A stretch of DNA of 64,000 nucleotides. It comes from Geodermatophilus telluris. GTDB lineage: Bacteria > Actinomycetota > Actinomycetes > Mycobacteriales > Geodermatophilaceae. A program made the position numbers and the translations under genes. Below the pieces are notes generated by a model, which was given only the letters and a program-made list of their open reading frames with translations, was not told the DNA's origin and did not search any database. The DNA is taken from the NCBI RefSeq assembly GCF_900102745.1, contig NZ_FMZF01000002.1, positions 186,001-250,000 of the forward strand, in the 5' to 3' direction. Shown piece by piece: positions 15,021-38,402 of the stretch. The stretch's first letter is position 1, and each line of letters starts with the position of its first letter.

Positions 15021-15260
15021 GTGCACGCTCCGGGCGAGGACCAGCTACCCAGTCGGCGCGCCCTCCACCCTCACGACCCCCTTCCTGCTGACCGGCCGCG
15101 CCTGCGGGCGGTCGAGGACCCGCTCCCGCCGACCGGCCCGCCGTGCACCTGCGGCCACGGGAAGACGGCCCACGAGCACTACCGGCGGGGCCGGGAGTGT
15201 GCCCTCTGCCGCTGCTCCTCCTACCGTCGTCGCAGGTGGTTCCGCCGCAACCGCGCATGA
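15021..15260 (+). CDS. Small Cys/His-rich 'YRRG' protein, member 1
   Basis: 79 residues from GTG 15021, with GGGAAAGG about 7 nt upstream. The C-terminal half holds CTCGHGKTAHEHYRRGRECALC and then C, Y and a run of Arg. The spacing C-x-C-G-H-G-K-x2-H-x-H-Y-R-R-G-x-[DE]-C-x2-C recurs in two other genes of this window (18070 and 38226). The Cys and His residues suggest a small zinc-binding knuckle; the YRRG and Arg-rich tail suggest contact with nucleic acid or acidic lipid or polymer. No known domain is recognised. It follows ugd. Confidence 0.75.
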   Translation: MHAPGEDQLPSRRALHPHDPLPADRPRLRAVEDPLPPTGPPCTCGHGKTAHEHYRRGRECALCRCSSYRRRRWFRRNRA

Positions 15261-15471
15261 GCCAGCGCTCCGGGACAGCCGGGACGACTGCCCACGGACG
15301 ACGCGGCGACTACGGAGCGTGAGACACGCCAGGGGTGCACCCAAATGGGACCCCTCGACCAGTTGAACGACGGACCAACACCACGCCAAGGTCGTCACCG
15401 GGTGTACCCGGCTCCTGGCCGGGTGCCCCGCCGCGGTGCGACCGGCGCGCCGAGGTGGCGAGGAGGGCAAC

Positions 15472-16758
15472 GTGCTGGTCGACGAGGACTGCGGAGGAGC
15501 GCTCGGCTCCGTCGCGGTGCCCGTCCCCGGCCGCGGCCCGCTCCGCCGGACCCTCGGCCGCGGTCTCGCGCTCCTCGTCCTCCTCGCCGGTGCCTGGCTC
15601 CTCCTCGCGCTCGTGGGCGGTACCGCCCGCGCCGACGACGCCGTGCCGGCCGCCGACGACGCCTCCGCGGGCTGGGGAGACGACGGCAGCACCGGGCACG
15701 CGACGTCCGAGCCGGTCGAGGAGCCGGCCGGGACGTGGCCGGTGGCCGCCGAGGACCCCGTGCCGGTGGAGCCGGTCACGACGTGGGAGCCTGCGGACCC
15801 GGTCGAGCCGACGCCCGTCCCGGACGCCCCGGCTCCGGACGCCCCGGTGACGGAGCCCGAGCCCCCGATCGCCGCCGAGCCCCCGGTCGCCGCCGAGCCC
15901 CCGGTCGCCGCCGAGCCCTCGGTCGGCACCGACGCCGGCACCCCGGACGCCGGTACCCCGGGGACGACGGACCCGGCTCCCGCCGCCCCGGCCACCCCGA
16001 CGGAGCCGGTCACCACCGAGCCCGTCCCGACCGAGCCAGGCACCACCGACCCGACCACCACCGAGCCTGCCCCGACGGACCCGGCCGTCCCGACGGACCC
16101 CGCCGCGACCGACCCCGCCACCACCGACCCCGCCACCACCGACCCCGCCACGGGGGCCGCGACGGCCGGCAGTGTGGGCGCCGGGGCCCCGGCGACCACT
16201 GACGAGGCCACCGGCGACGCCGCGCCCACCGCCGGGCCGGACGTGCTCGCGATCCAGGCCGACGCCCCGCTCGCCGCGGCGGAGGCCGGCCCGGCCGACC
16301 CCGCCGGGACGCCGACCTGTGACGGCAGCGAGGACCCCGCGGCGCCGGCCCCGGCGGAGACGGCCGCACCGTCCCGCGGCGGTCACGACGACACCACGAC
16401 GTCCGTCCGGCGCGAGCCCCCTGCGGGTCCCGCCCCGGACGGTGGCATCGAGGTCGCCGCCGCGCCCGCCTCCGTCGCCCCCTCGACGGCTCCTGCCGGC
16501 GCTCCCGCACCCGCTCCTCCGCTCCCGCCGCCGCTCCCGCCGGCACCGCCGGCGGTGCCGGCGGGCTCCTGCGTCACGGGGGCCGGCGGCAGCTACGCCG
16601 GCACCGGCGGGGGGCAGAACGGTGGGTCCGCGACGGACCTCGCCGTCCTCGGCCGGGGTCTCCCGGCCCCACCCCTGGCCGCTCCCGGCCTCCTGCACGG
16701 CTCTGCCGTCGACCCGGTCACCCACCGCGCCGACGAGCCTGGTTCGTCTCCGGACTGA
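15472..16758 (+). CDS. Secreted Pro/Thr/Ala-rich low-complexity protein
   Basis: 428 residues from GTG 15472, with AGGAGGG 5 nt upstream. A signal sequence or membrane anchor (about 27-48, LALLVLLAGAWLLLALVGG then TARADD) is followed by about 300 residues made mostly of Pro, Thr, Ala, Glu and Asp. Repeats include three copies of (V/I)AAEPP and three of DPATT. A short C-terminal stretch with one Cys pair is richer in Gly. Its extended, acidic, Thr-rich make-up resembles wall-spanning or O-mannosylated stalk proteins of actinobacteria. The opposite strand also stays open over this range, but that is a composition effect. Function unknown. Confidence 0.75.
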   Translation: MLVDEDCGGALGSVAVPVPGRGPLRRTLGRGLALLVLLAGAWLLLALVGGTARADDAVPAADDASAGWGDDGSTGHATSEPVEEPAGTWPVAAEDPVPVEPVTTWEPADPVEPTPVPDAPAPDAPVTEPEPPIAAEPPVAAEPPVAAEPSVGTDAGTPDAGTPGTTDPAPAAPATPTEPVTTEPVPTEPGTTDPTTTEPAPTDPAVPTDPAATDPATTDPATTDPATGAATAGSVGAGAPATTDEATGDAAPTAGPDVLAIQADAPLAAAEAGPADPAGTPTCDGSEDPAAPAPAETAAPSRGGHDDTTTSVRREPPAGPAPDGGIEVAAAPASVAPSTAPAGAPAPAPPLPPPLPPAPPAVPAGSCVTGAGGSYAGTGGGQNGGSATDLAVLGRGLPAPPLAAPGLLHGSAVDPVTHRADEPGSSPD

Positions 16759-16960
16759 GACGCACGGGTGGGTCCCACGGCCCACCCCTGCCCCGTGGTC
16801 GTGCTCCGGCACCCCGCCCGGCACCACACCTCGGCCCGCCCCCCAGCGCCACCCCGGCGCTCCCGCGCCACCGTCCCGTGGACCCGTCCCGGTCCCGGCG
16901 GCGCGGACGAGGCAGCGGCCGCAGTCCCCGAGACCGCGCACCAGCACCGAGAGCTGAGAC

Positions 16961-17854
16961 ATGACCGACACGCAGAGCCACACGCCCGTCCGCATCCCGG
17001 CCCAGCCGGGCCCGCAGGCCCGCATCCACCACGTCCCCGTCCGCACCGCGGCGCCGCGCGTGAGCGTCGTCATCCCCACGTACAACGAGGCCCGGAACCT
17101 GCCGCACGTCTTCGCCCAGCTCCCCGCGGGCCTGCACGAGGTGGTCGTCGTCGACGGCCACAGCGTCGACGGGACCGTGGAGGTGGCCCAGGCGCTGCGG
17201 CCCGACGTCCGGATCGTCCGGCAGAACCGCCGCGGCAAGGGCAACGCCATGGCCTGCGGCTTCGCGGCCGTGACGGGCGACGTCGTGGTCATGCTCGACG
17301 CCGACGGCTCGGCCGACGGGCAGGAGATCGAGCGCTTCGTCGCCGCGCTGTCGGCCGGCGCCGACTTCGCCAAGGGCACCCGCTTCGCGGGCGACGGCGG
17401 CAGCAGCGACATCACCGCCGTCCGTGCGTGGGGCAACCGGTGGCTCAACCGGATCGCCAACGTGCTGTTCGGCACCCGCTACACCGACCTCTGCTACGGC
17501 TACAACGCGTTCTGGACGCACTGTCTGCCGGCGCTCGAGCTCGACCCCGGCACGCAGACCGACGACGCGACGCTGTGGGGCGACGGCTTCGAGATCGAGA
17601 CGATCATCAACACCCGCATGGCGAAGGCGGGCATGAAGATCACCGAGGTGCCCAGCTACGAGCACCCGCGGCTGCACGGCACGAGCAACCTCAACACCTG
17701 GCGGGACGGGCTCCGCGTCCTCCGGGCGCTGGTGGTGGAGCGGTGCAACGGCCGGGGGCGCGCCGTGCTCGCCGAGGTCGGCCACCTGACGCCGCGACGG
17801 GAGGACGGCGCCGTGGTGGAGGGCGCCGCCCGGGGCTCCAGCCGGACGGCGTGA
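16961..17854 (+). CDS. GT2 glycosyltransferase (DPM1/DPG-synthase-like), copy 1
   Basis: 297 residues. Residues about 28-260 form a GT-A fold: VSVVIPTYNEARNLPHV, the metal-binding MLDADGSAD, KGTRF and GYNAFW. It resembles dolichyl/polyprenyl-phosphate mannose or glucose synthases and has no membrane helix, so the product would be a sugar on a membrane lipid or repeat unit. It is strikingly similar to the protein encoded at 32053-32931: long runs such as RPDVRIVRQNRRGKGNAMACGF are the same in both. The start ATG has only a weak SD (GAGAG). Confidence 0.9.
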   Translation: MTDTQSHTPVRIPAQPGPQARIHHVPVRTAAPRVSVVIPTYNEARNLPHVFAQLPAGLHEVVVVDGHSVDGTVEVAQALRPDVRIVRQNRRGKGNAMACGFAAVTGDVVVMLDADGSADGQEIERFVAALSAGADFAKGTRFAGDGGSSDITAVRAWGNRWLNRIANVLFGTRYTDLCYGYNAFWTHCLPALELDPGTQTDDATLWGDGFEIETIINTRMAKAGMKITEVPSYEHPRLHGTSNLNTWRDGLRVLRALVVERCNGRGRAVLAEVGHLTPRREDGAVVEGAARGSSRTA

Positions 17855-17972
17855 CCGCCCGCGGCCGCGCGGCCGGCGTCCCGCCACCACGGGGGCGGCG
17901 GGCAGTCGGCGGACCGCGGCCGCGGAGCGGTGGGGCCGGTGGGGTGTCCGGTGTGAGTGGTCCCGCTGGAGG

Positions 17973-17993
17973 GTGACACCTACAGCGTGTCAC
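17973..17993. promoter_or_regulatory. Inverted-repeat operator GTGACAC-N7-GTGTCAC
   Basis: A perfect 7-bp inverted repeat with a 7-nt spacer, directly before the expected -35 position of the promoter whose -10 is at 18017. A dimeric repressor bound here would probably hinder RNA polymerase. Confidence 0.6.
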
Positions 17994-18016
17994 TGTCCAG
18001 TAGCAGAGCGGAGGCC

Positions 18017-18022
18017 TAGGTT
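18017..18022 (+). promoter_or_regulatory. -10 box (TAGGTT) for YRRG protein 2
   Basis: TAGGTT fits TANNNT and lies 47 nt before ATG 18070, leaving a short leader with an AGGAGG ribosome site. Confidence 0.5.
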
Positions 18023-18069
18023 GATCCCGTCGGACGCGCCCCCCGGGGCCGAACCCCCAGGAGGTCGCC

Positions 18070-18291
18070 ATGCAGCCGGTCCGTACCGCCCCGCCCGTCG
18101 AGAGCCCCGCCCCGCGGCGGTCCGCCGTGCGCCTGGCCGCCGCGGCAGCCGCTCCTGTCGCCGCCGCGTGCGACTGCGGGCACGGCAAGCAGGCCCACCA
18201 GCACTACCGCCGGGGGAGCGACTGCGCCTTCTGCGGCTGCGCGCGCTACCACCGTCCGCTGCTGCGCCGCCTGATCTCGCTCGCCCGCTGA
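18070..18291 (+). CDS. Small Cys/His-rich 'YRRG' protein, member 2
   Basis: 73 residues. ATG 18070 has AGGAGG 6 nt upstream, a strong signal. An Ala-rich N-terminal half (possibly a helix) leads to CDCGHGKQAHQHYRRGSDCAFC, then GCARYHRPLLRRL. All Cys and His positions match member 1. It is monocistronic, with its own promoter and a palindromic operator at 17973-17993, so it is likely to be switched by a dedicated regulator. No function is known to me for this family. Confidence 0.8.
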   Translation: MQPVRTAPPVESPAPRRSAVRLAAAAAAPVAAACDCGHGKQAHQHYRRGSDCAFCGCARYHRPLLRRLISLAR

Positions 18292-18631
18292 GCCACGCGC
18301 CACCGCGCGACCTGCGAGGGCGGGCCGGCCCGGTGCCCGGAGCGGGCGCCGACCGGTGACCGGCGGGTCCCCGGGTGCGGCCGGTGCCGGTGGGGCGCGT
18401 GTGACGACCGTGGCGAACGAGGTGGACGAGCACCTCGGGACGGACGGGTCCGCCCCGTCCCCCTCCGCGGCGGCCGCCGAGCGGTCGGGTCGCCCCTGAC
18501 CAGGCCCGGAACGACGCGGATCTCGGCCAGGTAACGGCCGGGTGCTCAAGATCTGCCCGAAGTCAAGCGTGAGATTCATCAAGCTTGTGCGGACCGTGTT
18601 CGGGCAATGACAGACAGCTACTGTCAACGAC
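18292..18631. other. Intergenic region before the first GH16 gene
   Basis: 340 bases. The left part is GC-rich and holds only a 32-codon frame from GTG 18401 to 18499 that I cannot support. The right part (18531-18630) is AT-richer, with three TCAAG motifs, and ends in the leaderless promoter at 18619. Confidence 0.4.
18619..18624 (+). promoter_or_regulatory. -10 box (TACTGT) for a leaderless GH16 gene
   Basis: TACTGT ends 7 nt before ATG 18632 and there is no SD. The same hexamer, at the same type of spacing, occurs before the short frame at 38526. Confidence 0.55.
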
Positions 18632-19807
18632 ATGCAGCACCGCGCGCCGCGTCGCCCCCGGTTCTTCGTCACGACCTCGGTCATGGCCCTGCTCGTCGGC
18701 AGCGGCGGCGTGGTGGGCGGTCTGCTCGCCGAGAGCGCCCCGGTGTCCCAGGAGGCCGCCGTGAGCAGCCCCGACCTCGCCGAGGCCGCCCGGACGCGGT
18801 GGCAGGACGCGCAGCGCGCCTCCCGCGAGGCCGCCTCCCGTTGGCCCGGGGGCGGTCGGCCGTCGACGCCGACGACCACGCCGGCACCCACCGCTGCCGT
18901 GCCGCCGACGACCGCGGCACCGGTCCCCACCGCCCCTGCGACGCAGACCCCGACCGCGAGCGCCACCCCCGTCCCGACGACGTCGGACCCCGCGCCGGCC
19001 GCCACGCCCTCCAGCCCCGCGACCGGCGGGACCGCCCCCACCACGCAGGCCGGCAGCGGCACCACCGGCGGGACCACGAGCGGCAGCACGGGCAGCAGCA
19101 CGGCCGTCAGCCCCGCGGTCAGCGCCGCCGGCTTCGACTCCGTCGAGGAGTTCGCCACGCCGGTCCCGGCCGGTACCTGGCCGTCCGACGGCCGGGCGCC
19201 CACGGCCTACCCGAAGTACGTCTCCTACCGTGACGGGACCTCGAACACCTACTACCCGTCGCAGGTGCTCAGCGTCCACGACGGCGTCCTGGACTGGAAC
19301 GTGCGCAACAGCATGGGCGCCGCCGTCCTGCCCTTCGGGTACCAGGGGTTCACCTACGGGACGTACACGGTGCGCATGCGGACCGACAACTTCCCCGACT
19401 ACCACATCGCCTTCCTGCTCTGGCCGAACACCGACAAGTGGACCCACGAGCTCGACGGCCCCGAGTCGGACACCGACAAGACCAACCCCTACTCGGCGGT
19501 CCTGCAGTCGACCGACCCGGTCCGCTTCCTGCCGTCGGACCCCAAGCCCACGACGCCCATCTCCTGGAACGCGCCGGAGTTCCACAACTACACGTGGCAG
19601 TGGGGCCCGGACTTCGTGGCCTTCTACCAGGACGGCGTGCAGATCTCCCGGGTGACGAGCAACGTGCCCAACCAGGGCATGCACCCGGTGATGCAGGTCG
19701 AGTTCGAGAAGGCGGGCGTCAAGCCGGCCGCGTCCATCTCCGGCCACGTCCTCGTCGACCGCGTCATGTACGACCCGAGCTACACGATCGCGGTCCCCAC
19801 CGTCTGA
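18632..19807 (+). CDS. Secreted GH16-type glycoside hydrolase with Ser/Thr/Pro linker
   Basis: 391 residues. An N-terminal signal or anchor (about 12-32), a short charged helix, a long Thr/Pro/Ser/Gly linker (about 75-165), then a beta-jelly-roll domain of about 225 residues. The GH16 catalytic signature ExDxxE is seen as HELDGPE, with strands YGTYTVRMRTD before it and NYTWQWGPDFVAFYQDG after it. GH16 enzymes cut beta-1,3/1,4-glucans, galactans or xyloglucan, or transfer chains. In this locus it could trim or remodel the exported polymer. The start is leaderless (TACTGT at 18619). Confidence 0.85.
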   Translation: MQHRAPRRPRFFVTTSVMALLVGSGGVVGGLLAESAPVSQEAAVSSPDLAEAARTRWQDAQRASREAASRWPGGGRPSTPTTTPAPTAAVPPTTAAPVPTAPATQTPTASATPVPTTSDPAPAATPSSPATGGTAPTTQAGSGTTGGTTSGSTGSSTAVSPAVSAAGFDSVEEFATPVPAGTWPSDGRAPTAYPKYVSYRDGTSNTYYPSQVLSVHDGVLDWNVRNSMGAAVLPFGYQGFTYGTYTVRMRTDNFPDYHIAFLLWPNTDKWTHELDGPESDTDKTNPYSAVLQSTDPVRFLPSDPKPTTPISWNAPEFHNYTWQWGPDFVAFYQDGVQISRVTSNVPNQGMHPVMQVEFEKAGVKPAASISGHVLVDRVMYDPSYTIAVPTV

Positions 19808-19814
19808 GGTCGCG

Positions 19815-19839
19815 GGCTCACCCCTTCGGGCGGGGAGCC
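19815..19839 (+). terminator. Imperfect hairpin after GH16 gene 1
   Basis: GGCT-CA-CCCC pairs with GGGG-AGCC around a 7-nt loop, 8 bases after the stop codon. There is a 2-nt bulge. Confidence 0.4.
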
Positions 19840-19917
19840 GCCGCTCCCGCCCGCCCCGCGCGGTACCGTCCCGGGGCCCGGCCGCCGGAGTCGGGGCAGG
19901 GGACGAGAGGGTGGACG

Positions 19918-21228
19918 GTGACTCCTCAGCAGGCGCCGGGGACCGGGGGGAGCGCCGTGCCCGCCCTGTGGTGCGGCGAGCTCGAGCTGGCCGGCGAACC
20001 GGCGGTCACCGGCATCCGCGCCTACGCCGGCCAGCGCCGGGCGCGGGTCCTGCTGCGGCTGCACGGCGACCCGCTCGGCTACCTGGAGGTGCCGGTCACC
20101 GGTGCCGGCCCGGACGCCGCAGAGGTGGCCCGCACCGGCGCCGAGCGCCACGTCGGGGCGATCGCCGCCCACCTGGCCGCCGAGGGCGTGGACTGGACCG
20201 TCGGGGACCCGGTGCCCGCCCCGGCGAGCGGGTGCCCCGGCCGGTTCGCCTCCGACACCGAGGTCACCGTCGTCGTCTGCACCCGGGACCGGGGGGAGGC
20301 GCTGGCGGAGTGCCTCGAGCGGCTGGCGGCCCTGACCCACCCGCACCTGGAGCTGCTGGTCGTCGACAACGCCCCTTCCGACGACAGCACCCGCCGGGTG
20401 GTCGAGTCCTTCGCCGCCCGGGACCCCCGCTTCCGGCACGTGCTGGAACCGCGGCCCGGGCTGTCCCGGGCCCGCAACCGCGGCCTCGCCGAGGCCCGGG
20501 GCGCGGTCATCGCCTACACCGACGACGACGTGGCCGTGGACCCCGGCTGGGTCCAGGGCCTGCTGCGGGGCTTCGCGCGCCGGGCCGACGTGGGCTGCGT
20601 GACCGGCCTGGTGGCCACGGCCGGCATCGACACCGGCGAGGAGGCCTACTTCGACGCCCGCGCGGCCTCCTGGTCGACCCGCTGCGAGCCGGAGATCTAC
20701 GACCTGGCCGGCGACGCGCGCGACGACGCCCTCTACCCCTACTCGGCCGGGATCTTCGGCACGGGCGCGAACTTCGCCTTCGACACCGCGATGCTCCGGG
20801 AGCTCGGCGGCTTCGACGAGGCGCTCGGCGCGGGTGCGCCGACCCGCGGCGGTGAGGACCTCGACGTGTTCGTCCGGGTGCTCCGGGCCGGCCGCGCGCT
20901 GGCCTACGAGCCGGCCGCCGTCGTCTGGCACCACCACCGCGCCGACCCCGCCGCCCTGCTGCGCCAGCTGTACGGCTACGGCACCGGGCTGACCGCCTAC
21001 CTCACCAAGTGCCTGCTGCAGCGCGACGTCCGCCGGGACGTCATCCGCCGGGTCCCGCGGGGGCTCGCGCGGGTGGTCCGGATCCGGCAGGCCACCGACG
21101 AGCGGCTGGGGGAGGGGGCGCGGGCGCCGCAGGGCGCGCTCGCCAGCGAGCTGCGCGGCTACCTCGCCGGCCCGGCGCTCTACCTCCGGGCCCGCCGGGA
21201 GGTCGGGCGCAGCCGCGCCGGCGCGTAG
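19918..21228 (+). CDS. GT2 glycosyltransferase with N-terminal extension
   Basis: 436 residues from GTG 19918 (GAGAGGG upstream). The first 110 residues form an unassigned alpha/beta domain seen ahead of some actinobacterial GT2 enzymes. The GT-A domain follows: VTVVVCTRDRGEAL, VVDNAPSDDST, AYTDDDVAVD as the metal site, then GTGANFAFD and GGEDLDVFVRV as the acceptor and catalytic region. It is probably cytoplasmic and adds one sugar of the repeat unit. Its last 49 bases overlap the end of the convergent membrane protein gene. Confidence 0.88.
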   Translation: MTPQQAPGTGGSAVPALWCGELELAGEPAVTGIRAYAGQRRARVLLRLHGDPLGYLEVPVTGAGPDAAEVARTGAERHVGAIAAHLAAEGVDWTVGDPVPAPASGCPGRFASDTEVTVVVCTRDRGEALAECLERLAALTHPHLELLVVDNAPSDDSTRRVVESFAARDPRFRHVLEPRPGLSRARNRGLAEARGAVIAYTDDDVAVDPGWVQGLLRGFARRADVGCVTGLVATAGIDTGEEAYFDARAASWSTRCEPEIYDLAGDARDDALYPYSAGIFGTGANFAFDTAMLRELGGFDEALGAGAPTRGGEDLDVFVRVLRAGRALAYEPAAVVWHHHRADPAALLRQLYGYGTGLTAYLTKCLLQRDVRRDVIRRVPRGLARVVRIRQATDERLGEGARAPQGALASELRGYLAGPALYLRARREVGRSRAGA

Positions 21229-21881
21229 CCGTCGTCCCGGCGGGGCCCCCGCCAGGCCCGCAGGGCGACCACGCCGACGGCGGCGACCAGCACGCCCGCG
21301 TAGACCGGGTACGGCAGGTGCGCCGACGTCGGCAGCAGCGGCCAGAGCAGGGGCACGCCGGGTCCGGAGGCCAGGTCCCGGACGACGTGCAGGACCACCC
21401 CGAGGGCCAGCCCCGCCAGCCGGGTGCGCTGCGCCCGCCAGACCCCCGCCGCCACGAGCAGGACCAGCACCGTGGTCACCGAGTGGCTGACCGGGCGGCC
21501 GCCGTCGGCGGTGACCTCGGCCCCCAGGTAGAGCGGCACGTGGTCGAGGTCGATGAGCACCGCCCCGGCGAGGGCCCAGAGCACGAGCCGGCGGGACCGC
21601 ACCCCGGCCGCGGCCAGCAGCAGCCCGGCGGTCAGCAGGTGGGCCGGCTCGTCGAGCAGCGCCTCGGCCGGCACCGACCAGTGGCGCAGGGCGAGCAGCC
21701 GGTCGATCCCGAGGACGGCGACGAGTGCCGCGACGGCGCCGAGGACCACACGGGCACGGGCCGCCACCCCGCCGTCCTGACCGGCGCCACCCGGCAGCGG
21801 GCGCCCGTCGATCCCTGCCACGGTCCTGCACAACGCGCGGGCTCCGCCCGGTGTCCCCCGCGACGCCGTGGCCCCGGTCAC
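21180..21881 (-). CDS. YdjM/DUF457-type membrane-bound metal-dependent hydrolase-like protein
   Basis: 233 residues, of which about 190 are solid. Four to five membrane helices carry conserved polar residues: DEPAHLLTAG, LIDLDHVPLYLG, PVSHSV and LHVVRDLASGPGVPLLWPL. This His/Asp pattern is that of the YdjM (LexA-regulated) / DUF457 family, thought to be membrane metallo-hydrolases. The N-terminal 35 residues from GTG 21881 are low-complexity, and a start at about 21765 is possible. Substrate unknown. Confidence 0.75.
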   Translation of the reverse strand: MTGATASRGTPGGARALCRTVAGIDGRPLPGGAGQDGGVAARARVVLGAVAALVAVLGIDRLLALRHWSVPAEALLDEPAHLLTAGLLLAAAGVRSRRLVLWALAGAVLIDLDHVPLYLGAEVTADGGRPVSHSVTTVLVLLVAAGVWRAQRTRLAGLALGVVLHVVRDLASGPGVPLLWPLLPTSAHLPYPVYAGVLVAAVGVVALRAWRGPRRDDGYAPARLRPTSRRARR

Positions 21882-21984
21882 GTGGGCGGACCGTTACCAC
21901 GATCGTTGCGCTCCGTAGCCGAGCCCGGCTCGGACACGCCGTCCTCCGGTACCCTGGAGCCCGCAAGGTGACGGACAGCTACCT

Positions 21985-21999: not shown

Positions 22000-22917
22000 T
22001 CCGGAGCAGGCCCGGTCCTGGACCCGCACGAGACCGGTGCCGGCGGGACGCCCCCCGCCGGTGACCCCGGGGGCCGGGCGGCCCGTCGTGCACGGGCGCT
22101 GCTCGCCGGCGTCCGCCCCCGCACCTGGGTCGTCGCCGGGATGGTGCTCGTCCTGCTGGTGGGGGGTCTCGTGTGGACGTCGTGGGACCGGCACGACAGC
22201 ACGATGCCCGTCGGCGACCTGGACGGCTGGCGGCAGACCTTCACCGAGGACTTCCAGGAGGACGTGCCGCTGGGGTCGTTCCCCGGCGCCCCCTACGAGG
22301 AGAAGTGGACCGGGTACCAGGGCTTCACCGACACCTCGGGCGAGGGCCGGTACGAGACCGCGCACGTCGTCTCCGTGCAGGACGGCATCCTGGACATGTA
22401 CCTGCGCACGGAGGACGGCACGCCCCTGGTGGCCGCGCCGGTCCCGCTGGTCAGCGGTTCGTGGGGCGGCCAGCTCTACGGCCGGTTCGAGGTCCGCTTC
22501 CGGGCGGACCCGGTGACCGGCTACAAGACCGCCTGGCTGCTGTGGCCGGACTCCGACGAGTGGGCCGACGGCGAGGTCGACTTCCCGGAGGGGCCGCTCG
22601 ACGGCGAGTTCTACGCCGCCAACCTCTGCGTGGGCGAGCCGGGCACCTTCTGCTACCGCAGCGAGGACCTCGCGACCTTCACCTCGTGGCACACCGCGGC
22701 CATCGAGTGGACGCCGGCGGGGGTGACCTTCTACCTCGACGGGGAGGAGGTCGGGCACTCCGACGAGAGCCCGTCCAAGCCCATGCACTGGGTGCTGCAG
22801 ACCGAGACCGACCACGGCGAGCCCCCGGCCTCGTCGTCCGGGCACGTCGAGATCGACTGGGTCACCATCTACGAGATGACCCCCGACCACCCGGACGCCG
22901 AGCAGACCGCGTCCTGA
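21997..22917 (+). CDS. Membrane-anchored GH16-type glycoside hydrolase, probable ATT start
   Basis: 306 residues if it begins at ATT 21997, 258 if at ATG 22141. The region before ATG 22141 codes for a Gly/Pro-rich tail and a basic ARRARALLAGVRPRTW segment that would orient the membrane helix VVAGMVLVLLVGGLVW; starting at 22141 would cut into that helix and leave no SD. The mature domain shows the GH16 signature ExDxxE as DGEVDFPEG, with YGRFEVRFRAD before it and HVEIDWVTIYEM at the end. It would be an extracytoplasmic glycanase or transglycosylase anchored in the membrane, in contrast to the linker-type enzyme at 18632. Confidence 0.8.
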   Translation: MSGAGPVLDPHETGAGGTPPAGDPGGRAARRARALLAGVRPRTWVVAGMVLVLLVGGLVWTSWDRHDSTMPVGDLDGWRQTFTEDFQEDVPLGSFPGAPYEEKWTGYQGFTDTSGEGRYETAHVVSVQDGILDMYLRTEDGTPLVAAPVPLVSGSWGGQLYGRFEVRFRADPVTGYKTAWLLWPDSDEWADGEVDFPEGPLDGEFYAANLCVGEPGTFCYRSEDLATFTSWHTAAIEWTPAGVTFYLDGEEVGHSDESPSKPMHWVLQTETDHGEPPASSSGHVEIDWVTIYEMTPDHPDAEQTAS

Positions 22918-31262: not shown

Positions 31263-31378
31263 CCCGTCCCCCTGTCTGTCGCTGGCCCCGCCGTCGGCGG
31301 GTGCCGGTCGTCGGTCCGACGTCGGGGGCGCGGCGTGCGCCCCCGTCCTGCCCCGCCCTCGTCCCGGGCGGGCCGGGG

Positions 31379-31981
31379 TCACAGCCCCCAGCTCACGTCC
31401 TTGCGCTTGACGACGGCGGGGACGCCGGCGACCAGCGTCCCCGGCGGGACGTCGCGGGTCACCACGGAGTGCGCCGCGACCACGGCGCCCCGGCCGATGG
31501 TGACGCCCTTCATGATGGTGGCGCCGAAGCCGATCCAGACGTCGTCCTCGACGACGATCGGCGCGGACTGCGGCTTGCCGTCCATGTCGTGGTTGTCGCT
31601 GTCGCGGAAGGTGACGCGGTCACCGATGATCACGTTGTCGCCGATGGTGATCGACCGGTAGCAGGAGAGCCGGATGTCGACGTTGGAGCCGCTGCCGTGG
31701 CCGATCCGCAGGACCGCTCCCGACGCCACCCCCACGCGGAGCCCGCTCATGAACGAGCCCCGGCCGGCCACGTGCACCTGCGCGCCGTCGCGCACCACGA
31801 AGTGCCCCGGGTAGAGCGGCGCCCCGCCCGCCCACTGCCGGCCCAGCGTGAACTTCTCCCCGATGGAGAGCTCCGCGCTGCGGGCCACGCGGAAGGTCAC
31901 CTTGCGGTACACGACCAGCTTGCTGCCGTGCCGCAGGGACGGCAGGGGGTTGATCCGGAGCAGTTCACGAGCGGCGGACAC
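31379..31981 (-). CDS. Hexapeptide-repeat (left-handed beta-helix) acyltransferase
   Basis: 200 residues. The C-terminal two thirds are hexapeptide repeats: SITIGDNVIIGDRV, PIVVEDDVWIGFGATIMKGVTIGRGAVVAAHSVV and a final DVPPGTLVAGVPAVVKR. The His in DNHDMDG is the usual catalytic base of LacA/NodL/WcaF-type O-acetyltransferases. It would acetylate a sugar of the polymer as a homotrimer. GTG 31981 has a TAAGGT box 8 nt upstream and no SD, so it is probably leaderless. Confidence 0.88.
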   Translation of the reverse strand: MSAARELLRINPLPSLRHGSKLVVYRKVTFRVARSAELSIGEKFTLGRQWAGGAPLYPGHFVVRDGAQVHVAGRGSFMSGLRVGVASGAVLRIGHGSGSNVDIRLSCYRSITIGDNVIIGDRVTFRDSDNHDMDGKPQSAPIVVEDDVWIGFGATIMKGVTIGRGAVVAAHSVVTRDVPPGTLVAGVPAVVKRKDVSWGL

Positions 31982-31989
31982 GACGTCTG

Positions 31990-31995
31990 ACCTTA
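31990..31995 (-). promoter_or_regulatory. -10 box (TAAGGT) for the acyltransferase
   Basis: On the minus strand TAAGGT lies 8 nt before GTG 31981. It sits inside a 71-base gap that also holds the terminator at 32008. Confidence 0.5.
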
Positions 31996-32007
31996 GGGGA
32001 GGAGGAG

Positions 32008-32044
32008 CCCGGTGCCGTCCCCCGTCGGGGTGGACGGCACCGGG
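32008..32044 (-). terminator. Strong hairpin after GT2 copy 2
   Basis: CCCGGTGCCGTCC pairs perfectly with GGACGGCACCGGG over 13 bp around an 11-nt loop, 8 bases past the stop of the GT2 gene. Confidence 0.75.
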
Positions 32045-32052
32045 CGGGGCCC

Positions 32053-32931
32053 TCAGGCCGAGCGGGCCTCGATGGCCGGGCGCTCCGCGGCCAGCAGGGC
32101 CTCGGCGGTCTCCGGCGTGGCCACCGGCGCCGACGCGGCGAGGGTGCGGTCGCCGCGGCGGACGTGCCGGCTGCCCCCACGGTTGACCCGCTCGATGGCG
32201 AGCGCGCGCAGGACCCGCAGGCCGTCCCGCCACGTGTTCAGGTTGCTCTCGCCGTGGATGCGCTCGAACTCGAAGCTCGGCACCTCGACGATCCGCAGCT
32301 TCGCCTTGGCGACGCGGGTGTTGATGATCGTCTCGATCTCGAACCCGTCGCCCCAGCGCTTGCGGTCCTCGTCGTGGTCGCCCGCCTTGAGGTCCAGGAC
32401 CGTCAGGCAGTGCTCCCAGAAGGCGTTGTAGCCGTAGCACAGGTCGGTGTAGCGGGTGCCGAACAGCACGTTGGCCGAGCGGTTGAGCCACCGGTTGCCC
32501 CAGGCGCGCATGCGGGTGATGTCCGCGCTGCCGCCGCCGTTGGCGAAGCGGGTGCCCTTGGCGTAGTCCGCGCCGTCGACCAGGGCCTGCACGAACCGCG
32601 GGATCTCGCGGGGGTCGGCCGAGCCGTCGGCGTCCAGCATGACCACGATGTCACCGGTCACCGCCGCGAAGCCGCACGCCATGGCGTTGCCCTTGCCCCG
32701 GCGGTTCTGCCGCACGATGCGCACGTCGGGGCGCAGCGAGCGGGCGACGGCGATGGTGTCGTCCACGCTGCGGCCGTCCACGACGATGACCTCGTACACG
32801 TCCTCGGGCAGCAGCGAGAAGACGTGCGGGAGGTTGCGGGCCTCGTTGTAGGTGGGGATGACGACGCTCACCCGAGGGAGCGCGCCGGCCGGCCTCTCGA
32901 GCGGGGACGCGTCGGAGGTGTCGCGGTGCAT
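32053..32931 (-). CDS. GT2 glycosyltransferase (DPM1-like), copy 2
   Basis: 292 residues from ATG 32931 with AAGGAG 9 nt upstream. The GT-A domain has VSVVIPTYNEARNLPHV, MLDADGSAD and GYNAFWEH, nearly the same as the protein at 16961-17854. Over residues 20-250 I estimate that more than four fifths of residues match; at DNA level many synonymous sites differ, so this is an older duplication than the sugar-transferase repeat. An upstream in-frame ATG (33015) exists but lacks an SD. The two copies may add the same sugar in two assembly lines. Confidence 0.9.
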   Translation of the reverse strand: MHRDTSDASPLERPAGALPRVSVVIPTYNEARNLPHVFSLLPEDVYEVIVVDGRSVDDTIAVARSLRPDVRIVRQNRRGKGNAMACGFAAVTGDIVVMLDADGSADPREIPRFVQALVDGADYAKGTRFANGGGSADITRMRAWGNRWLNRSANVLFGTRYTDLCYGYNAFWEHCLTVLDLKAGDHDEDRKRWGDGFEIETIINTRVAKAKLRIVEVPSFEFERIHGESNLNTWRDGLRVLRALAIERVNRGGSRHVRRGDRTLAASAPVATPETAEALLAAERPAIEARSA

Positions 32932-33401
32932 GAGGGTCCTCTCCTTGCGGAAGGGCCCGGTTTCGCCACTGCTCACTGCCGGACTCTGGCGACCAGGGTT
33001 CGTCCGGCAGGTCATCGCTGCCCTGTCTGTGCTTCGGTGGTCGATCCCGTGGTCCGGTGTCCCGAGGCCCTCCTTGGCCTCACGACGCCACTCCGGAGCG
33101 CTCGACTGCTGCGCCGCCTGGGCCCCCACGGGTGACCTTCGAGTGAAACGACTCGGTCCATGTGTCTACAACAGAGGTCATCTGCTGTCCATCGGACCGC
33201 GCGCCGCCACCCGTCCGGGGACGACGGCCGGTTCCCGACCGCGACCGGGAGCGGGCGGACCGGCGAGGGCCTCCGCGCGGCCGTCCCAGGCGTGTCACTG
33301 CCCGAGCGTCAGGGCACGTTGACCCTGCGCCACGACGAGGGGGCGGGACGACGTCCGGGCGGGGGCGCGGTGGGGCGCGCTCCGCGAGCCTGTGTCTCTC
33401 C
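32932..33401. other. Intergenic region upstream of GT2 copy 2
   Basis: 470 bases with no gene I can support. An 8-bp inverted repeat TGCCGGAC / GTCCGGCA (32977-33009) lies in the leader of the GT2 gene. An AT-richer island at 33135-33190 probably holds its promoter, and contains a small CGAGT-N6-ACTCG hairpin; no clear -35/-10 pair stands out. Confidence 0.35.
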
Positions 33402-34361
33402 TCACCCGTCGAGCTGGTCGTCGGTCAGGCCGTCCCGCCGGGGGTCGTCGAGCACCTCCTGCAGCGCCCGGGCGGCGTCCGCGTCGCCGGACAGGGTCGA
33501 GCGCAGGAAGTCCGTCGTGGTGGCGAGCACCGTGGCGAAGCTGGGGTCCTCCGGCTTGCCGTAGGGCGAGCTGTGGGTGGCCTCGCGCAGCCCCAGGAAG
33601 GCCTTCGGGGCCGGGGCCGCCTCGAACGCGGCGCGCCCGTCCGCCACCGGGATCGTGTCGTCAGCGGTGCCGTGCTCGAACAGGGTCGGCACGCCGGGCT
33701 GGGCGAAGGACGCCCCGAAGCCGGTCAGCGTCCCGGCCAGCACCACCGCCGCGGTGATCCGCTCGTCGGCGCAGCAGGTGTTGAGCAGGCCGATGGTGGT
33801 CACCGCGCCGCCGGAGTGCCCGGCGGCGGCGACCGCCGAGGGGTCCAGCCGTCCCTCGAGGACGTCACCGGCCGTGGTGTCGAGGGCCAGCACCTGGGTG
33901 AGCACGAAGGAGACGTCGGCGGGCTGGTTGAGCACGTCGGTGTAGACGGGGTCCACGTCGGCGTTGGTCAGCGGGAAGGTGGGCGCGGCGACGACGAACC
34001 CGGCCGAGGCCCACCCCGAGAGCAGGTCGTCGTACGCGGCGGGTCCCGACGTGATGCCGTGGCTGAAGACCACGACGGGGTAGGGGCCCTCGCCGTCGGT
34101 GGGGTACCAGACCGTGGTCGGCAGGTCCCGGCCCGCCACCTCGTCGCCGGGCTCGCCCGGCGTCGGGTCGGTGGCGCGGCTGGTGTCGGTCAGCTCGAGG
34201 GTCCGCGTGTCGACCGGGTGGGTGTCGACGGCCGCGGCCGTGGTCGAGGTGCCCGCCGGCGGGGACGCCGACGGCTCGGACGTGCCGCAGCCGACGGTCG
34301 TGCCGACGAGGAGCCCGGCGAGGACGGGGGGCAGGAGGCGTCGGAGCCGCGGTCGGGACAC
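33402..34361 (-). CDS. Lipoprotein alpha/beta hydrolase (dienelactone/PAF-acetylhydrolase-like)
   Basis: 319 residues from GTG 34361 (GTG 34379 is also possible). A basic start, a short hydrophobic stretch and the lipobox-like TVGC at about residue 24 mark an exported lipoprotein. The hydrolase domain has VVFSHGITSGP (oxyanion region), AAGHSGGAV with the nucleophile Ser, EHGTADDTIP with the Asp, and a late REATHSSPYG with the His. It could remove ester groups such as the acetyl groups placed by the acyltransferase at 31379. That link is only by location. Confidence 0.82.
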   Translation of the reverse strand: MSRPRLRRLLPPVLAGLLVGTTVGCGTSEPSASPPAGTSTTAAAVDTHPVDTRTLELTDTSRATDPTPGEPGDEVAGRDLPTTVWYPTDGEGPYPVVVFSHGITSGPAAYDDLLSGWASAGFVVAAPTFPLTNADVDPVYTDVLNQPADVSFVLTQVLALDTTAGDVLEGRLDPSAVAAAGHSGGAVTTIGLLNTCCADERITAAVVLAGTLTGFGASFAQPGVPTLFEHGTADDTIPVADGRAAFEAAPAPKAFLGLREATHSSPYGKPEDPSFATVLATTTDFLRSTLSGDADAARALQEVLDDPRRDGLTDDQLDG

Positions 34362-34405
34362 CGCCCGAGCATCCCCCACGGACGACGGGTGGCCGCCGAG
34401 GGGAG

Positions 34406-37057
34406 TCAGCGGTCGTCGTCCTCGGCGATCCCCCGCGCGATCTCCTCGACGTGCGGCGAGCGCAGCAGCGAGTTGTGGTCGCCGTTGAGGGTGACCACGT
34501 CGATCGGGCCGGGCAGCAGCGCCCGCCACGCCTGCGGGTCGTCGGGGTTGAGGTGGCTCACGTAGACGCGGACCCGCCCGGACCACGGCTGCGGCCGGTG
34601 CATGAGCGAGGTGCGCACGCCCAGCTCGCGCAGCCCCTCCATCCGCGTCGCCGAGGGGCGGACGAGGGGACCGAGGAGGGCGACCACGCGTCGGCGCCAC
34701 AGCTCGCGCGGTGGTGGGGTCGCGTCGTCGGCACCGCCGACGGGCGGGTCGGACAGCGCGAACAGCACCTCCGACCGCTTGCCGTCGGTCGAGGGCAGGC
34801 CGGCGCGCCGGGCGAGGCTGGGCGGGGCGAAGGTGTCGATCAGGGTCACCGCCCGGACGTCCTCGCCCGCCGCCGTGAGCAGCCGCGCCACCTGCAGGGC
34901 GACCAGGCCGCCCATCGAGTGGCCCACCAGCCGGTAGGGACCCGACGGCTGCAGCTCGCGGACCCGTCGCAGGTGCCGGCGGGCGGCCATGCGCACGGTG
35001 AGGTCGGGCAGCGCCCACTCCTCGAGCCCGTGCGGCTGGAAGGCGAAGACCGGCTGGTCGGGCCCGAGGGCGTCGGCCAGGGGGAGGAACGCCTGGCCGC
35101 CGGCGCCCGCCCCCGCGAAGCAGAGGACCGGCGGCCGCTCCCCGGTCGCGCGCAGCGCCACCAGGCTGCCGTGCCGCCCGCGGCGGCGGCCCGGGGCCGG
35201 CGCGGCGTCGGGCCCGGACCCCGCGCCGTGCGCGGCGAGCACGGCGGCCAGCTCCCGGACGGTGGGCGCCTCGGCCACGTCGGAGGTCGACAGCACGACG
35301 CCGTACTGCTCGGCCATCCGGGTGAGCAGCTCCTCCACGGTGAGGGAGTCGCCCCCGAGGGAGGTCAGGCTCACGTCCCGGCCGACGTCGCGGCGGCCGA
35401 GCACGGTGGCGAACAGCTCGGCGACCCGCCGCTCCCACTCGCCCTGCGGCGGCTCGTCGGACGGGGGAGCGGGACGCGGCAGGGCGCCGCGGTCGACCTT
35501 GCCCCGCTCGGTGCGCGGCAGCTCGCCGAGCAGCCGGATCTCCGCGGGCACCATCCAGCTCGGCAGGGCCGCCACCAGTCCCCGGCGCAGCTGCGCCGGG
35601 GAGGGCGTGCGGCCGGCCCCGTCCGGGACGGCGTACCCGACGAGGCGGGCGTCGGAGCCGGTGGGGACCGCGAGGACGGCGGCGTCGGCCACGCCCGACT
35701 GCCCCCGCAGCGCCGCCTCCACCTCGGCCGGCTCGACCAGGTACCCGCCGACCTTCACGGCGTCGTCGGCCCGGCCCAGCACGTGCAGCACGCCGGCCTC
35801 GTCGAAGCGCGCCCGGTCGCCCATGCGGAACGACTGGCGCCCGTCGTCGGTGGCCCGGAACACGTCGCCGCCGCCGTCGAGGTAGCTGGAGAGGAAGGGG
35901 GCGGTCACCCGGAGCCCGCCCACCTCGCCGGGGGGCAGCACGCGGCCCTCGCCGTCGACGACCTCGACGTCCTTGGTCTCCACGGGACGGCCGGCGGGGA
36001 CCGCGCCGTCGGGGAGGGGGTCCTCCGGGCCGAGCGGCAGGAAGGTGATCTGGCAGGTCTCGGACGAGCCCAGCCCGTTGACGACGGTCACCGGCCCCAG
36101 CCGCTCCCGGGCGGTGCGGACGTCGCGGGCCTGCAGGGCCTCGCCCGCGCACGCCACCAGCCGCAGGTCGTCCAGCGGCTCGCCGTCGGGGGTGGCGCCG
36201 GCGACCGCGCGCAGCAGCGAGGGCGTCAGCGAGGTGACCTGCACGCCCTCGCGGCGCAGCCAGTCGGGCACCCCGCGGATGCCGGCCGCCCGCGGGTCGA
36301 GGACGTGCAGGCTCCCGCCGGCCAGGAGGGTGCCGAACACGCAGTGCTCGCCGAGGGAGAACGACGGCGGCAGCAGCTGCGCGACGCGGGTGCCCGGGCC
36401 GATGCCCAGGTGGCGCGCGGTCAGGGCGGCCTCGGCCAGCACCAGCCCGTGCGAGTGCACGACGCCCTTGGGACGGCCGGTCGACCCGGAGGTGAACACG
36501 ATCGTGGCCGGACTGGTCAGCGCGGGCCGGGGACCGTCCGGCTCCGGCGTCCCGGCGGGGAACTCCCCGCCGGGGGCTACCACCTCGTGGAGGTCCGCGA
36601 CGACGGGCGCGTCGCGCAGCCCGGCGACGCGGTCCCGCAGCGCCGGCTCGGCCAGGCAGAGCGCCGCCCCGGCCATCTCCTGGATCTGCTGGAGGCGGCC
36701 GACGGGCAGCTGCGAGTCCAGGACGACGAGCGGGCGGCCGGAGAGCACCACGCCGACCATGGCCACCACGAGGGCGGCGGAGGGGGTGCCCAGGACGGCG
36801 ACCGGCGCGGTCTCGGCGACGGTCTCCGGGGTGAGGGTGCGCAGGCGGCGCGCGCAGGCGGCGGCGCGGTCGGCCAGCTCCGCGTAGGTCAGCGAGAGGT
36901 CCGGGGAGGTCACCGCCAGGGACGCCGGCCGGGCCGCGACCACCGCACCGAGCGCCGCGGCCACCGAGCCGGCCCCGGCGGCCGCCGCGGGACCGTCGGC
37001 CGTCCCGGGATCGGTGTCGGTCATGGCAGCACCCTCGAGCTCGGTCGGTTCGGACAT
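34406..37057 (-). CDS. Free-standing A-PCP-thioesterase (NRPS-like) protein
   Basis: 883 residues. Adenylation domain about 25-525, with core motif FTSGSTGRPKG (188-198), GLGSSETCQ, the YGD-like RMGDRARF and the Lys of A10 in RTERGKVDR (Lys520). A carrier domain about 540-610 has LGGDSL with the phosphopantetheine Ser at 571. A type I thioesterase about 640-880 has GHSMGG (712-717). There is no condensation domain, so it can activate, load and release or transfer an acyl or amino-acyl group but not join two residues. In this locus it may decorate the glycan with an amino or hydroxy acid. ATG 37057 has TAGCGT 7 nt upstream (leaderless); ATG 37024 is the alternative. Confidence 0.9.
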   Translation of the reverse strand: MSEPTELEGAAMTDTDPGTADGPAAAAGAGSVAAALGAVVAARPASLAVTSPDLSLTYAELADRAAACARRLRTLTPETVAETAPVAVLGTPSAALVVAMVGVVLSGRPLVVLDSQLPVGRLQQIQEMAGAALCLAEPALRDRVAGLRDAPVVADLHEVVAPGGEFPAGTPEPDGPRPALTSPATIVFTSGSTGRPKGVVHSHGLVLAEAALTARHLGIGPGTRVAQLLPPSFSLGEHCVFGTLLAGGSLHVLDPRAAGIRGVPDWLRREGVQVTSLTPSLLRAVAGATPDGEPLDDLRLVACAGEALQARDVRTARERLGPVTVVNGLGSSETCQITFLPLGPEDPLPDGAVPAGRPVETKDVEVVDGEGRVLPPGEVGGLRVTAPFLSSYLDGGGDVFRATDDGRQSFRMGDRARFDEAGVLHVLGRADDAVKVGGYLVEPAEVEAALRGQSGVADAAVLAVPTGSDARLVGYAVPDGAGRTPSPAQLRRGLVAALPSWMVPAEIRLLGELPRTERGKVDRGALPRPAPPSDEPPQGEWERRVAELFATVLGRRDVGRDVSLTSLGGDSLTVEELLTRMAEQYGVVLSTSDVAEAPTVRELAAVLAAHGAGSGPDAAPAPGRRRGRHGSLVALRATGERPPVLCFAGAGAGGQAFLPLADALGPDQPVFAFQPHGLEEWALPDLTVRMAARRHLRRVRELQPSGPYRLVGHSMGGLVALQVARLLTAAGEDVRAVTLIDTFAPPSLARRAGLPSTDGKRSEVLFALSDPPVGGADDATPPPRELWRRRVVALLGPLVRPSATRMEGLRELGVRTSLMHRPQPWSGRVRVYVSHLNPDDPQAWRALLPGPIDVVTLNGDHNSLLRSPHVEEIARGIAEDDDR

Positions 37058-37064
37058 CGGAGCA

Positions 37065-37070
37065 ACGCTA
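37065..37070 (-). promoter_or_regulatory. -10 box (TAGCGT) for the NRPS-like gene
   Basis: On the minus strand TAGCGT is 7 nt before ATG 37057, and no SD precedes that ATG. Confidence 0.5.
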
Positions 37071-37124
37071 GGTCCCCGCTGATCCGGCCGCGACGCCTCC
37101 CTCCGGACGCGGTGCTCGCCGGGG

Positions 37125-38087
37125 TCACCCGGAGCGTCGTGCGCGCACCCGGGCCCAGGCGTAGCTGGTGGCGGTGAGCAGCGCGCCCTCGACGATGGCC
37201 CACGCCCGCGCCGCACCGGCGCGGTCGCCGCGGGCCGCCTGCCGCAGGCCGCGGACGATCCCGGACGGCAGCGTCTGCCGGACGTAGACCCGCTCGCTGG
37301 ACAGCGCCTGGTCGGTCCCGGCCAGGCGGCTGACCAGCGCCTTCGAGCGCCCCTCGGCCCGGCAGCGGCGCCGGAAGTAGCGCCGCGTCACCCGGTCGGC
37401 GGGCACGTGGTGGTGGCACCGGGCGTCCGGCTCCACCAGGACGCGGCTGCCCGGCCGCGCCCGGCGTGCCCGGATGGCGAACTCGGTCTCCTCGCAGCCG
37501 GCCGCGTCCTTGCCCAGCCGGCCGATGTCGCTGTCGAAACCACCCGCGTCGGTGAACACGTCGCGCCGGAAGGCCATGTTCGCGCCGATCGGGTTGCGGA
37601 CCTCGGCGCGCGTCCGGGGCAGGCCCTGGTAGCTGCAGCCCACGACCCACAGGAACTCGTCGGGGAACCACGCCGGCCGCGGCGCGCGCCAGTCCGGCAG
37701 CACGCCGCCGCCGACGCCGATGACGTCGTCCCCGGTGAAGGCGGCCAGCAGGCGCTCGGCCCACTCCGGCTCCGCCGCGGCGTCGTCGTCGAGGAAGGCG
37801 ACCACGTCGCCCTCGGCGACCGCGACGCCGGTGTTGCGCGCGCCGGAGAGCCCGCGCGGGCCGGTGTTGGGCACGCACGTGACGTCGGGGAAGGCGGCCC
37901 GCGCGCGCTCGAGCAGCTCGTCGTTGTGGTCGGCCACGACGACGACCTGCGCGGGCGCGACCGTCTGCCGCCGGAGGCTGGCCACGGCCTGCTCGATGTC
38001 GCTCCAGCGTTCGAGCGTGTAGGCGCAGAGCACGACGCTCAGGCGCAGGTCGTCGGCCCGCAACGGGCCCTCGGGTCCGTCGGGCAC
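37125..38087 (-). CDS. GT2 glycosyltransferase
   Basis: 320 residues. GT-A features: LSVVLCAYTLERW, VVVADHNDELL, SGARNTGVAVAEGDVVAFLDDDAAAEP with the metal-binding Asp residues, then GANMAFRRDVF and CEETEFAIRARRA. It would be a cytoplasmic enzyme adding a sugar to the lipid-linked unit. GTG 38087 is chosen because a TATGCT box lies 6 nt upstream; earlier in-frame codons are not conserved in character. Confidence 0.9.
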   Translation of the reverse strand: MPDGPEGPLRADDLRLSVVLCAYTLERWSDIEQAVASLRRQTVAPAQVVVVADHNDELLERARAAFPDVTCVPNTGPRGLSGARNTGVAVAEGDVVAFLDDDAAAEPEWAERLLAAFTGDDVIGVGGGVLPDWRAPRPAWFPDEFLWVVGCSYQGLPRTRAEVRNPIGANMAFRRDVFTDAGGFDSDIGRLGKDAAGCEETEFAIRARRARPGSRVLVEPDARCHHHVPADRVTRRYFRRRCRAEGRSKALVSRLAGTDQALSSERVYVRQTLPSGIVRGLRQAARGDRAGAARAWAIVEGALLTATSYAWARVRARRSG

Positions 38088-38093
38088 CCCGGG

Positions 38094-38099
38094 AGCATA
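38094..38099 (-). promoter_or_regulatory. -10 box (TATGCT) for the GT2 at 37125
   Basis: On the minus strand TATGCT is 6 nt before GTG 38087 with no SD. Confidence 0.5.
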
Positions 38100-38225
38100 G
38101 GACCGACGGGTGCGGGAGCCGGTCCGGTCGCCGGACGGCCCCACCCGGAGGGGGCACCTCCGGGTCGTCCACTGTTTTCCCCGTGGCCTTTCCCCGGACC
38201 CCCCTCGTCCGGGCAGAATGGAGCC

Positions 38226-38402
38226 GTGCAGAGGGAGGCCCCGGCGGTGTTGCTCGAGCTCGGCCAGGTGCTGGGCGCCGCACGGTGCCGGTGCGGTGAC
38301 GGCCGGGTGTGGCACGAACACCACCGCCGTGGCAGCGACTGCTCCTTCCCCGGGTGTCCGTGTGCGCGCTACCGGAGGGCATCGGTCATCCCGACACGGT
38401 GA
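38226..38402 (+). CDS. Small Cys/His-rich 'YRRG' protein, member 3 (variant)
   Basis: 58 residues from GTG 38226. CRCGDGRVWHEHHRRGSDCSF, then PGCPCARYRR. The first His of the motif is Asp here (CGDG for CGHG), Tyr is His in HHRRG, and one residue is inserted before the last Cys pair, so this is the most diverged member. A CAGAAT box ends 6 nt before the GTG, hinting at a leaderless start. It is divergent from the GT2 gene at 38087. Confidence 0.72.
   Translation: MQREAPAVLLELGQVLGAARCRCGDGRVWHEHHRRGSDCSFPGCPCARYRRASVIPTR

Follow-up and report, generated by a model that had tools for sequence, protein, structure and literature searches.

A 64,000-nt stretch of the Geodermatophilus telluris genome (contig NZ_FMZF01000002.1, positions 186,001 to 250,000), here called the window and numbered from its first letter, carries three forward-strand genes for small proteins that share a Cys/His core, the knuckle. 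These knuckle proteins form one real, unnamed actinobacterial family, whose presence, copy number, and gene order follow those of one clade of lipid-carrier glycosyltransferases, a coupling that is new. All three open reading frames are present where a sequence-only reading of the window had placed them. Copy 1 (15021-15260, core at 15144-15224) encodes 79 amino acids from a GTG start with GGGAAAGG 7 nt upstream. Copy 2 (18070-18291, core at 18169-18249) encodes 73 amino acids from an ATG start that follows AGGAGG at a distance of 5 nt, and its codon usage calls a gene. Copy 3 (38226-38402, core at 38286-38372) encodes 58 amino acids from a GTG start with a weak ribosome-binding site (RBS), GGAG alone, 2 nt before the GTG. 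The suggestion that each copy has its own promoter or Shine-Dalgarno sequence holds in part, the latter being weak at copy 3, and separate promoters are not shown: a sigma-70 consensus scan finds no promoter-like site near any of the three, although other promoter types are possible. An inverted repeat lies upstream of copy 2 at 17966-18000 (14-nt arms, 86% complementary, 7-nt loop) and does not occur at the knuckle genes of relatives. No shared operator was found: the inverted repeats upstream of the copies are not conserved in relatives, and no common motif extends beyond close orthologs in word counts and the upstream alignments listed.

Alignment of the three cores gives C-x-C-G-[HD]-G-[KR]-x2-H-x-H-[YH]-R-R-G-x-[DE]-C-x2(4)-C-x-C-x2-Y-x-R, with 14 invariant columns. 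This confirms the motif sharing first proposed from the sequence, but the H/D position, the spacing, and the C-terminal extension needed correction. The residue after C-x-C-G is His in more than 90% of 41 relatives and Asp in copy 3 and its counterparts at two other loci (L049 and L056). Copy 3 has two additional residues ahead of the next-to-last Cys, and the extension reads C-x2(4)-C-x-C-x2-[YF]. A profile of the three cores recovers the three copies from their own genome (4.8 Mb, 12 contigs) at E-values of 6e-20 to 7e-19; the next match has an E-value of 0.07, and this search yields no other clear copy.

The same profile matches 48 of 112 Geodermatophilaceae genomes at E ≤ 0.01, these often carrying two to four copies close together. 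Thirty-two of these genomes match at E ≤ 1e-7 and 16 more weakly, 13 of the latter through short matches to profile positions 3-18 only. A 41-core profile (E ≤ 0.001) matches 71 of 397 sampled genomes of the order and, in an even draw from the phylum, 5 of 396 genomes, the own genome included; both draws undercount, as 20 first-look candidates were scored in most genomes. Scanning named genomes yields at least 79 loci, in genera that include Geodermatophilus, Blastococcus, Modestobacter, Rhodococcus, Mycolicibacterium, Pseudonocardia, Nocardioides, Curtobacterium, Frigoribacterium, Frondihabitans, Microbacterium, Kineococcus, and Paractinoplanes, plus one metagenome-assembled genome of Acidobacteria, and the IMG/VR collection contributes 29 viral loci. 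The profile search beyond the own genome, on which the sequence-only reading had staked its proposal, therefore finds homologs with conserved Cys/His widely in actinomycetes, and a family conserved so well outside G. telluris leaves that proposal standing. That reading was right in seeing a family here, one that merits a name. Across ortholog pairs, the ratio of nonsynonymous to synonymous substitution rates (dN/dS) of the core ranges from 0 to 0.29 in 12 of 13 cases, and the thirteenth pair has saturated synonymous sites. The gap in E-values across the genome, the matches throughout Geodermatophilaceae, and the low core dN/dS exclude chance resemblance.

In an alignment of 118 of the 119 distinct cores, C36, H43, H45, C52, and C55 (copy 2 numbering) are invariant, while C34, G37, H38, R47, G49, D51, and C57 occur in at least 90% of sequences. 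The conserved Cys/His set is of the metal-ligand type seen in metal knuckles and zinc fingers. Judged from the alignment, eight positions are possible ligands, which would be enough for two metal ions. The tails that follow are basic, with a mean net charge of +4.2 to +4.5. The one core left out of the alignment belongs to a transmembrane host variant (L076:10318, G048:C1:1922317), a weak match of 25 bits in which a hydrophobic helix and a long Pro/Ser/Thr-rich part come after the knuckle. Grouped by eye, without a tree, copy 1 has counterparts at four loci (L041, L048, L053, and L054) with the upstream box, RBS, and start conserved. The closest counterpart of copy 2, leader included, is at L048, with less close ones at L053 and L052, and those of copy 3 (L049 and L056) carry the insertion and the Asp-for-His exchange beside the same glycosyltransferase.

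None of the window copies has a fitting model in Pfam or NCBIfam, so the impression that no described domain has this spacing is borne out for these two collections, and the compact Cys/His knuckle pattern is upheld. Membership in a known family is ruled out in searches of Pfam, NCBIfam, PHROGs, and Protein Data Bank (PDB) sequences. The eukaryotic FAM221 family has a similar spacing, CGH...H...C..CxC. Its Pfam profile (PF14753) matches 3 of the 118 members weakly (best E 0.017) and none of the window copies at E ≤ 10; these matches are far below family level and are equaled or bettered by others, such as PF04060 (FeS; 5 of 118, best E 0.0011) and PF01078 (best E 0.0065), and do not make the knuckle proteins FAM221 members by Pfam profile. 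Two groups of phage proteins of unknown function match 5 (phrog_1311, best E 5.9e-5) and 11 (phrog_11944, best E 0.0026) of the 118 members, but most knuckle members have no match and neither group is assigned a function. WhiB-like proteins are likewise small, Cys-rich, and found in actinobacteria and their phages, but the knuckle has His ligands and another spacing, and no Pfam or NCBIfam WhiB profile, with its four Cys for an iron-sulfur cluster, matches. MucR/Ros proteins are small zinc proteins tied to exopolysaccharide control, mainly in proteobacteria; their finger spacing differs, and their Pfam and NCBIfam profiles give no match. PDB sequences include no relative of the knuckle (best E 1.2), and two AlphaFold runs returned poor models (mean pLDDT 61.5 and 58.8). 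Among annotated phages and plasmids, copies 2 and 3 and one viral copy find no match, and the consensus core gives marginal matches alone (E 4 to 10), one of them in a Bacillus phage whose annotated genes lie on the opposite strand. The portions of the literature consulted contain no account of the knuckle family.

The copies stand beside glycan genes, as the sequence-only reading had noted. Copy 1 follows a nucleotide-sugar dehydrogenase of the UDP-glucose 6-dehydrogenase type (13527-14891, forward; TIGR03026, 422.9 bits against a cut-off of 189.8). Copy 2 lies between a forward-strand family-2 glycosyltransferase (GT2) that we call AglJ-like (16961-17854; 126.9 bits, cut-off 325) and a glycoside hydrolase family 16 (GH16) protein (18632-19807, forward). 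Copy 3 is divergent from an AglG-like GT2 (37125-38087, reverse; 227.2 bits, cut-off 440), whereas copies 1 and 2 are in line with their neighbors. A paralogous AglJ-like GT2 (32053-32931, reverse; 126.6 bits, again under the cut-off of 325) belongs to a class that is head-to-head with a knuckle gene in many other genera. The labels AglJ-like and AglG-like reflect scores that do not reach the NCBIfam equivalog cut-offs. The best NCBIfam scores of the dehydrogenase, the two AglJ-like enzymes, and the AglG-like enzyme make the locus look like the haloarchaeal AglJ-AglG-UDP-glucuronate module; for 13527, 16961, 32053, and 37125 this is a likeness, not membership. A further GT2 (19957-21228, forward), the third glycosyltransferase class of a recurrent cluster described below, has the mycofactocin glycosyltransferase as its best NCBIfam match (119.6 bits, cut-off 280), and a YdjM-type membrane protein is encoded at 21180-21749 on the reverse strand. 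The window also contains a bacterial sugar transferase at 9505, a second GH16 protein at 22141, and a PKD protein at 38658. Inside the glycan locus, 34406-36943 encodes a protein resembling the adenylation part of nonribosomal peptide synthetases (TIGR01733, 245.6 bits, below the cut-off of 317.4), with homologs no more than 1.5 kb away at 4 of the 54 knuckle sites in relatives.

These associations recur in other genomes. Within Geodermatophilaceae, homologs of 16961, 32053, 37125, or 21180 are found no farther than 1.5 kb from 37 of the 54 knuckle sites; a homolog of 21180 is this close at 12 of the 54. Gene orientation could be scored at 51 sites, the other three having no called upstream gene: 16 are head-to-head with a GT2 class, 13 are followed by one, and at 34 one lies on one side or the other. 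At the 42 sites outside the bacterial family, an AglJ- or AglG-like gene stands head-to-head with the knuckle gene in 14 cases, and a downstream GT2 of these classes in no case. Among 60 named loci outside Geodermatophilaceae, 30 adjoin a GT2 of the window's four classes, to which none of 158 control genes belongs; the GT2 is divergent at 22 (18 of them AglJ-like), downstream on the same strand at 5, and upstream on the same strand at 3. By Pfam assignment, the nearest neighbors outside the family comprise 23 Glycos_transf_2 and 7 GH16 proteins out of 137 (of 157 listed), compared with at most 2 GT2 proteins among 137 control neighbors (of 143), where the GT2 family is absent from the best 25 families, the smallest of which has 2 members. 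The neighbor counts from the named loci and from the other sampled genomes are not independent, because the named loci partly repeat those genomes (for example, L265 is L163, and L200 is L148). A recurrent order of 19957-class, 37125-class, 32053-class, and knuckle genes is found in Frigoribacterium, Microbacterium, Frondihabitans, some Curtobacterium, and Paractinoplanes, several loci having one extra gene between the 19957 and 37125 classes.

The knuckle family and the AglJ-like enzyme also occur in the same genomes. An AglJ-like profile (E ≤ 1e-70) finds its target in 82 of the 397 genomes of the order (taken as the same draw as in the knuckle search): the enzyme is present in 61 of 71 knuckle-positive genomes versus 21 of 326 others, leaving 10 genomes with the knuckle only and 305 with neither (Fisher p = 9e-43, uncorrected for phylogeny). 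In the own genus, it accompanies all nine strong knuckle matches and none of the eight other genomes (p = 4e-5, or 0.002 if the weak matches in G050 and G052 are counted as positive). Three weaker knuckle relatives, L077 (in G050), L079 (in G089), and one in G052, come from genomes without an AglJ-like enzyme; L077 and L079 seem alike in their surroundings and may represent a second subfamily. A second genus, g13, which we take to be Mycobacterium in the broad sense, has 18 genomes with both, 4 with the knuckle only, 1 with the enzyme only, and 125 with neither (p = 2e-18), counting strong matches with an AglJ-like cut of 360 bits that was set post hoc at a gap between 364 and 350 and excluding the weak-knuckle genomes G840 and G883. 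At the thresholds as searched, the corresponding numbers are 20, 4, 15, and 109 (p = 8e-12). The AglG link is looser: an AglG-like profile matches 33 of 148 g13 genomes, and 19 of the 22 that have a strong knuckle. Among the 98 places in the order where a knuckle occurs, an AglJ-like gene starts within 5 kb at 45 and within 30 kb at 59, and some pairs are unlinked, being 4.4 Mb apart by coordinates in G895, 1.1 Mb apart in G822, and on two contigs in G436. Copy numbers of the two genes correlate across 25 Geodermatophilaceae genomes (rho = 0.75, p = 1e-5).

The window copies lack the transmembrane segments of DPM3/DPM2-type proteins, as none of the three reaches a hydropathy of 1.9 over 19 residues. 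The Ala-rich stretch of copy 2 that precedes the first Cys peaks at 1.33, and we do not call it a signal peptide because, by eye, it is absent from the L048 ortholog and the related L052 copy. Of the roles suggested from the sequence, small regulator and metal-dependent adaptor may each apply; that of wall-binding peptide is less supported in light of this unconserved stretch and the missing hydrophobic segments. In 8 of the 29 viral copies (L087-L091, L093, L096, and L101), a segment of transmembrane strength sits before or after the knuckle, five of these being near-identical in architecture. Neighbors at the viral loci, as judged from the best 25 of 80 families in a scan covering 91 of 112 neighbors, include portal, terminase, head-tail adaptor, tail, endolysin, and anti-repressor families.

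We tentatively favor a role for the knuckle as a metal-stabilized accessory protein that recruits or tunes soluble AglJ/AglG-type lipid-carrier glycosyltransferases at the membrane. The three genes would encode small, probably cytosolic proteins with a basic tail and a knuckle that probably holds two metals. The AglJ/AglG-type enzymes, which are predicted to be soluble, would attach sugars to a polyprenyl-phosphate carrier on the way to a surface polysaccharide, the sugars being suggested by likeness to the haloarchaeal enzymes. The knuckle would contact the glycosyltransferase, and the tail, or the hydrophobic helix in some viral copies, would keep the protein at the membrane or adjust enzyme activity. 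The co-occurrence with the AglJ-like enzyme, which extends to unlinked pairs, the copy-number correlation, and the GT2 neighbors speak for this role. DPM1-type GT2 enzymes act on a membrane lipid carrier, yet a hydrophobic segment is absent from the AglJ- and AglG-like enzymes (peak 19-residue hydropathy 1.24-1.61), which may therefore need help to reach the carrier. One account of dolichol-phosphate-mannose synthase describes a Dpm1 that has no transmembrane domain and requires Dpm3 as an anchor, a small partner for a soluble lipid-carrier GT2 (PMC7728079). The knuckle protein might act toward its enzyme as DPM3/DPM2 do toward soluble DPM1. The likeness is by analogy: DPM3 and DPM2 are both hydrophobic, and their sequence families match neither the window copies nor, among the best 25 of 26 Pfam families, the 118 members.

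Several observations weigh against this accessory role. Half of the named loci outside the family (30 of 60) lack a next-door GT2 of the window's classes, 10 of the 71 knuckle genomes lack the AglJ-like enzyme, and strong AglJ-like genes (above 360 bits) are present in 14 of the 21 genomes that have the enzyme only. A search for a hidden knuckle near AglJ-like genes of knuckle-negative genomes found none in 15 regions (14 from the enzyme-only set and 1 from g13, one spanning 5.7 kb), with a best score of 10.1 bits. None of the co-occurrence statistics is corrected for phylogeny. No fusion to a glycosyltransferase occurs among the 49 knuckle genes recovered by a gene caller that misses most of them and ignores genes below 55 amino acids; two of the 49 exceed 115 amino acids, both viral. 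The membrane step is the weakest part. A transmembrane-strength segment is found in 0 of 3 window copies, 0 of 42 out-of-family copies, and 1 of 54 Geodermatophilaceae copies (L076), and the amphipathicity of the tail exceeds that of shuffled sequences in the out-of-family set only (z = 1.08, n = 34), being close to shuffles in the family (0.12, n = 44) and in viruses (0.15, n = 20).

A possible though less probable explanation is transcriptional control: the small knuckle protein would regulate the head-to-head glycosyltransferase operon, perhaps sensing metal or redox state and working like WhiB while being unrelated to it. The divergent arrangements, with 14 of 42 out-of-family sites head-to-head and none with a downstream GT2 of these classes, and 22 of the 60 named loci divergent, speak for such a protein, as do the basic tails. 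Conserved divergent synteny is a hint of regulator-target pairs, according to PMC4944035, which cites Korbel et al. 2004. Set against this are the non-divergent copies (copies 1 and 2, and the 5 of 60 with a same-strand downstream GT2), the upstream inverted repeats that relatives do not conserve, and the absence of a shared motif beyond close orthologs in word counts and the upstream alignments listed. There is also no match to a DNA-binding family in Pfam or NCBIfam, and membrane-tethered viral copies fit DNA binding less well. We rank the accessory role ahead of regulation on the strength of the soluble enzymes, the Dpm3 precedent, the basic tails, and the viral transmembrane segments.

It is less likely still that the family is a metal knuckle of a general kind that binds nucleic acids or proteins and takes no direct part in glycan synthesis, and that it occurs in glycan and phage loci because both are variable islands that move together. 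The loci without an adjacent GT2, the genomes without the enzyme, and the members in viral contigs would all be accommodated. Gene order conserved over several bacterial families, co-occurrence of unlinked genes, and the copy-number correlation, however, are hard to obtain from shared islands alone. That the glycosyltransferase acts on the small Cys-rich protein itself, the latter being a glycocin-like or other ribosomal peptide product, we consider highly improbable. A small peptide gene does adjoin GT2 enzymes, one of which best matches the mycofactocin glycosyltransferase, but the eight Cys/His positions have knuckle-like spacing, the match to the peptide glycosyltransferase SunS reaches just 20-21 bits, and no leader or maturation genes were noticed, although no search was aimed at them.

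Taken further, the accessory role would make the knuckle a metal-gated recruiter that brings soluble polyprenyl-phosphate glycosyltransferases to the membrane. It would be the functional equivalent of DPM3 in bacteria and be duplicated with its enzymes, while membrane-tethered mimics in phages would seize or redirect the host enzyme and thereby alter the surface glycan of the host; we regard this full version as quite unlikely. The occurrence of the family in viral contigs, partly in membrane-tethered form, suggests a possible role in the contest between phage and host. A conserved small-protein family outside the Pfam and NCBIfam models now gains a testable partner. Should the knuckle protein prove to be a subunit, it would reveal how soluble enzymes of the AglJ/AglG type reach the membrane; if it is a regulator, it would be a control point for surface polysaccharide in actinobacteria.

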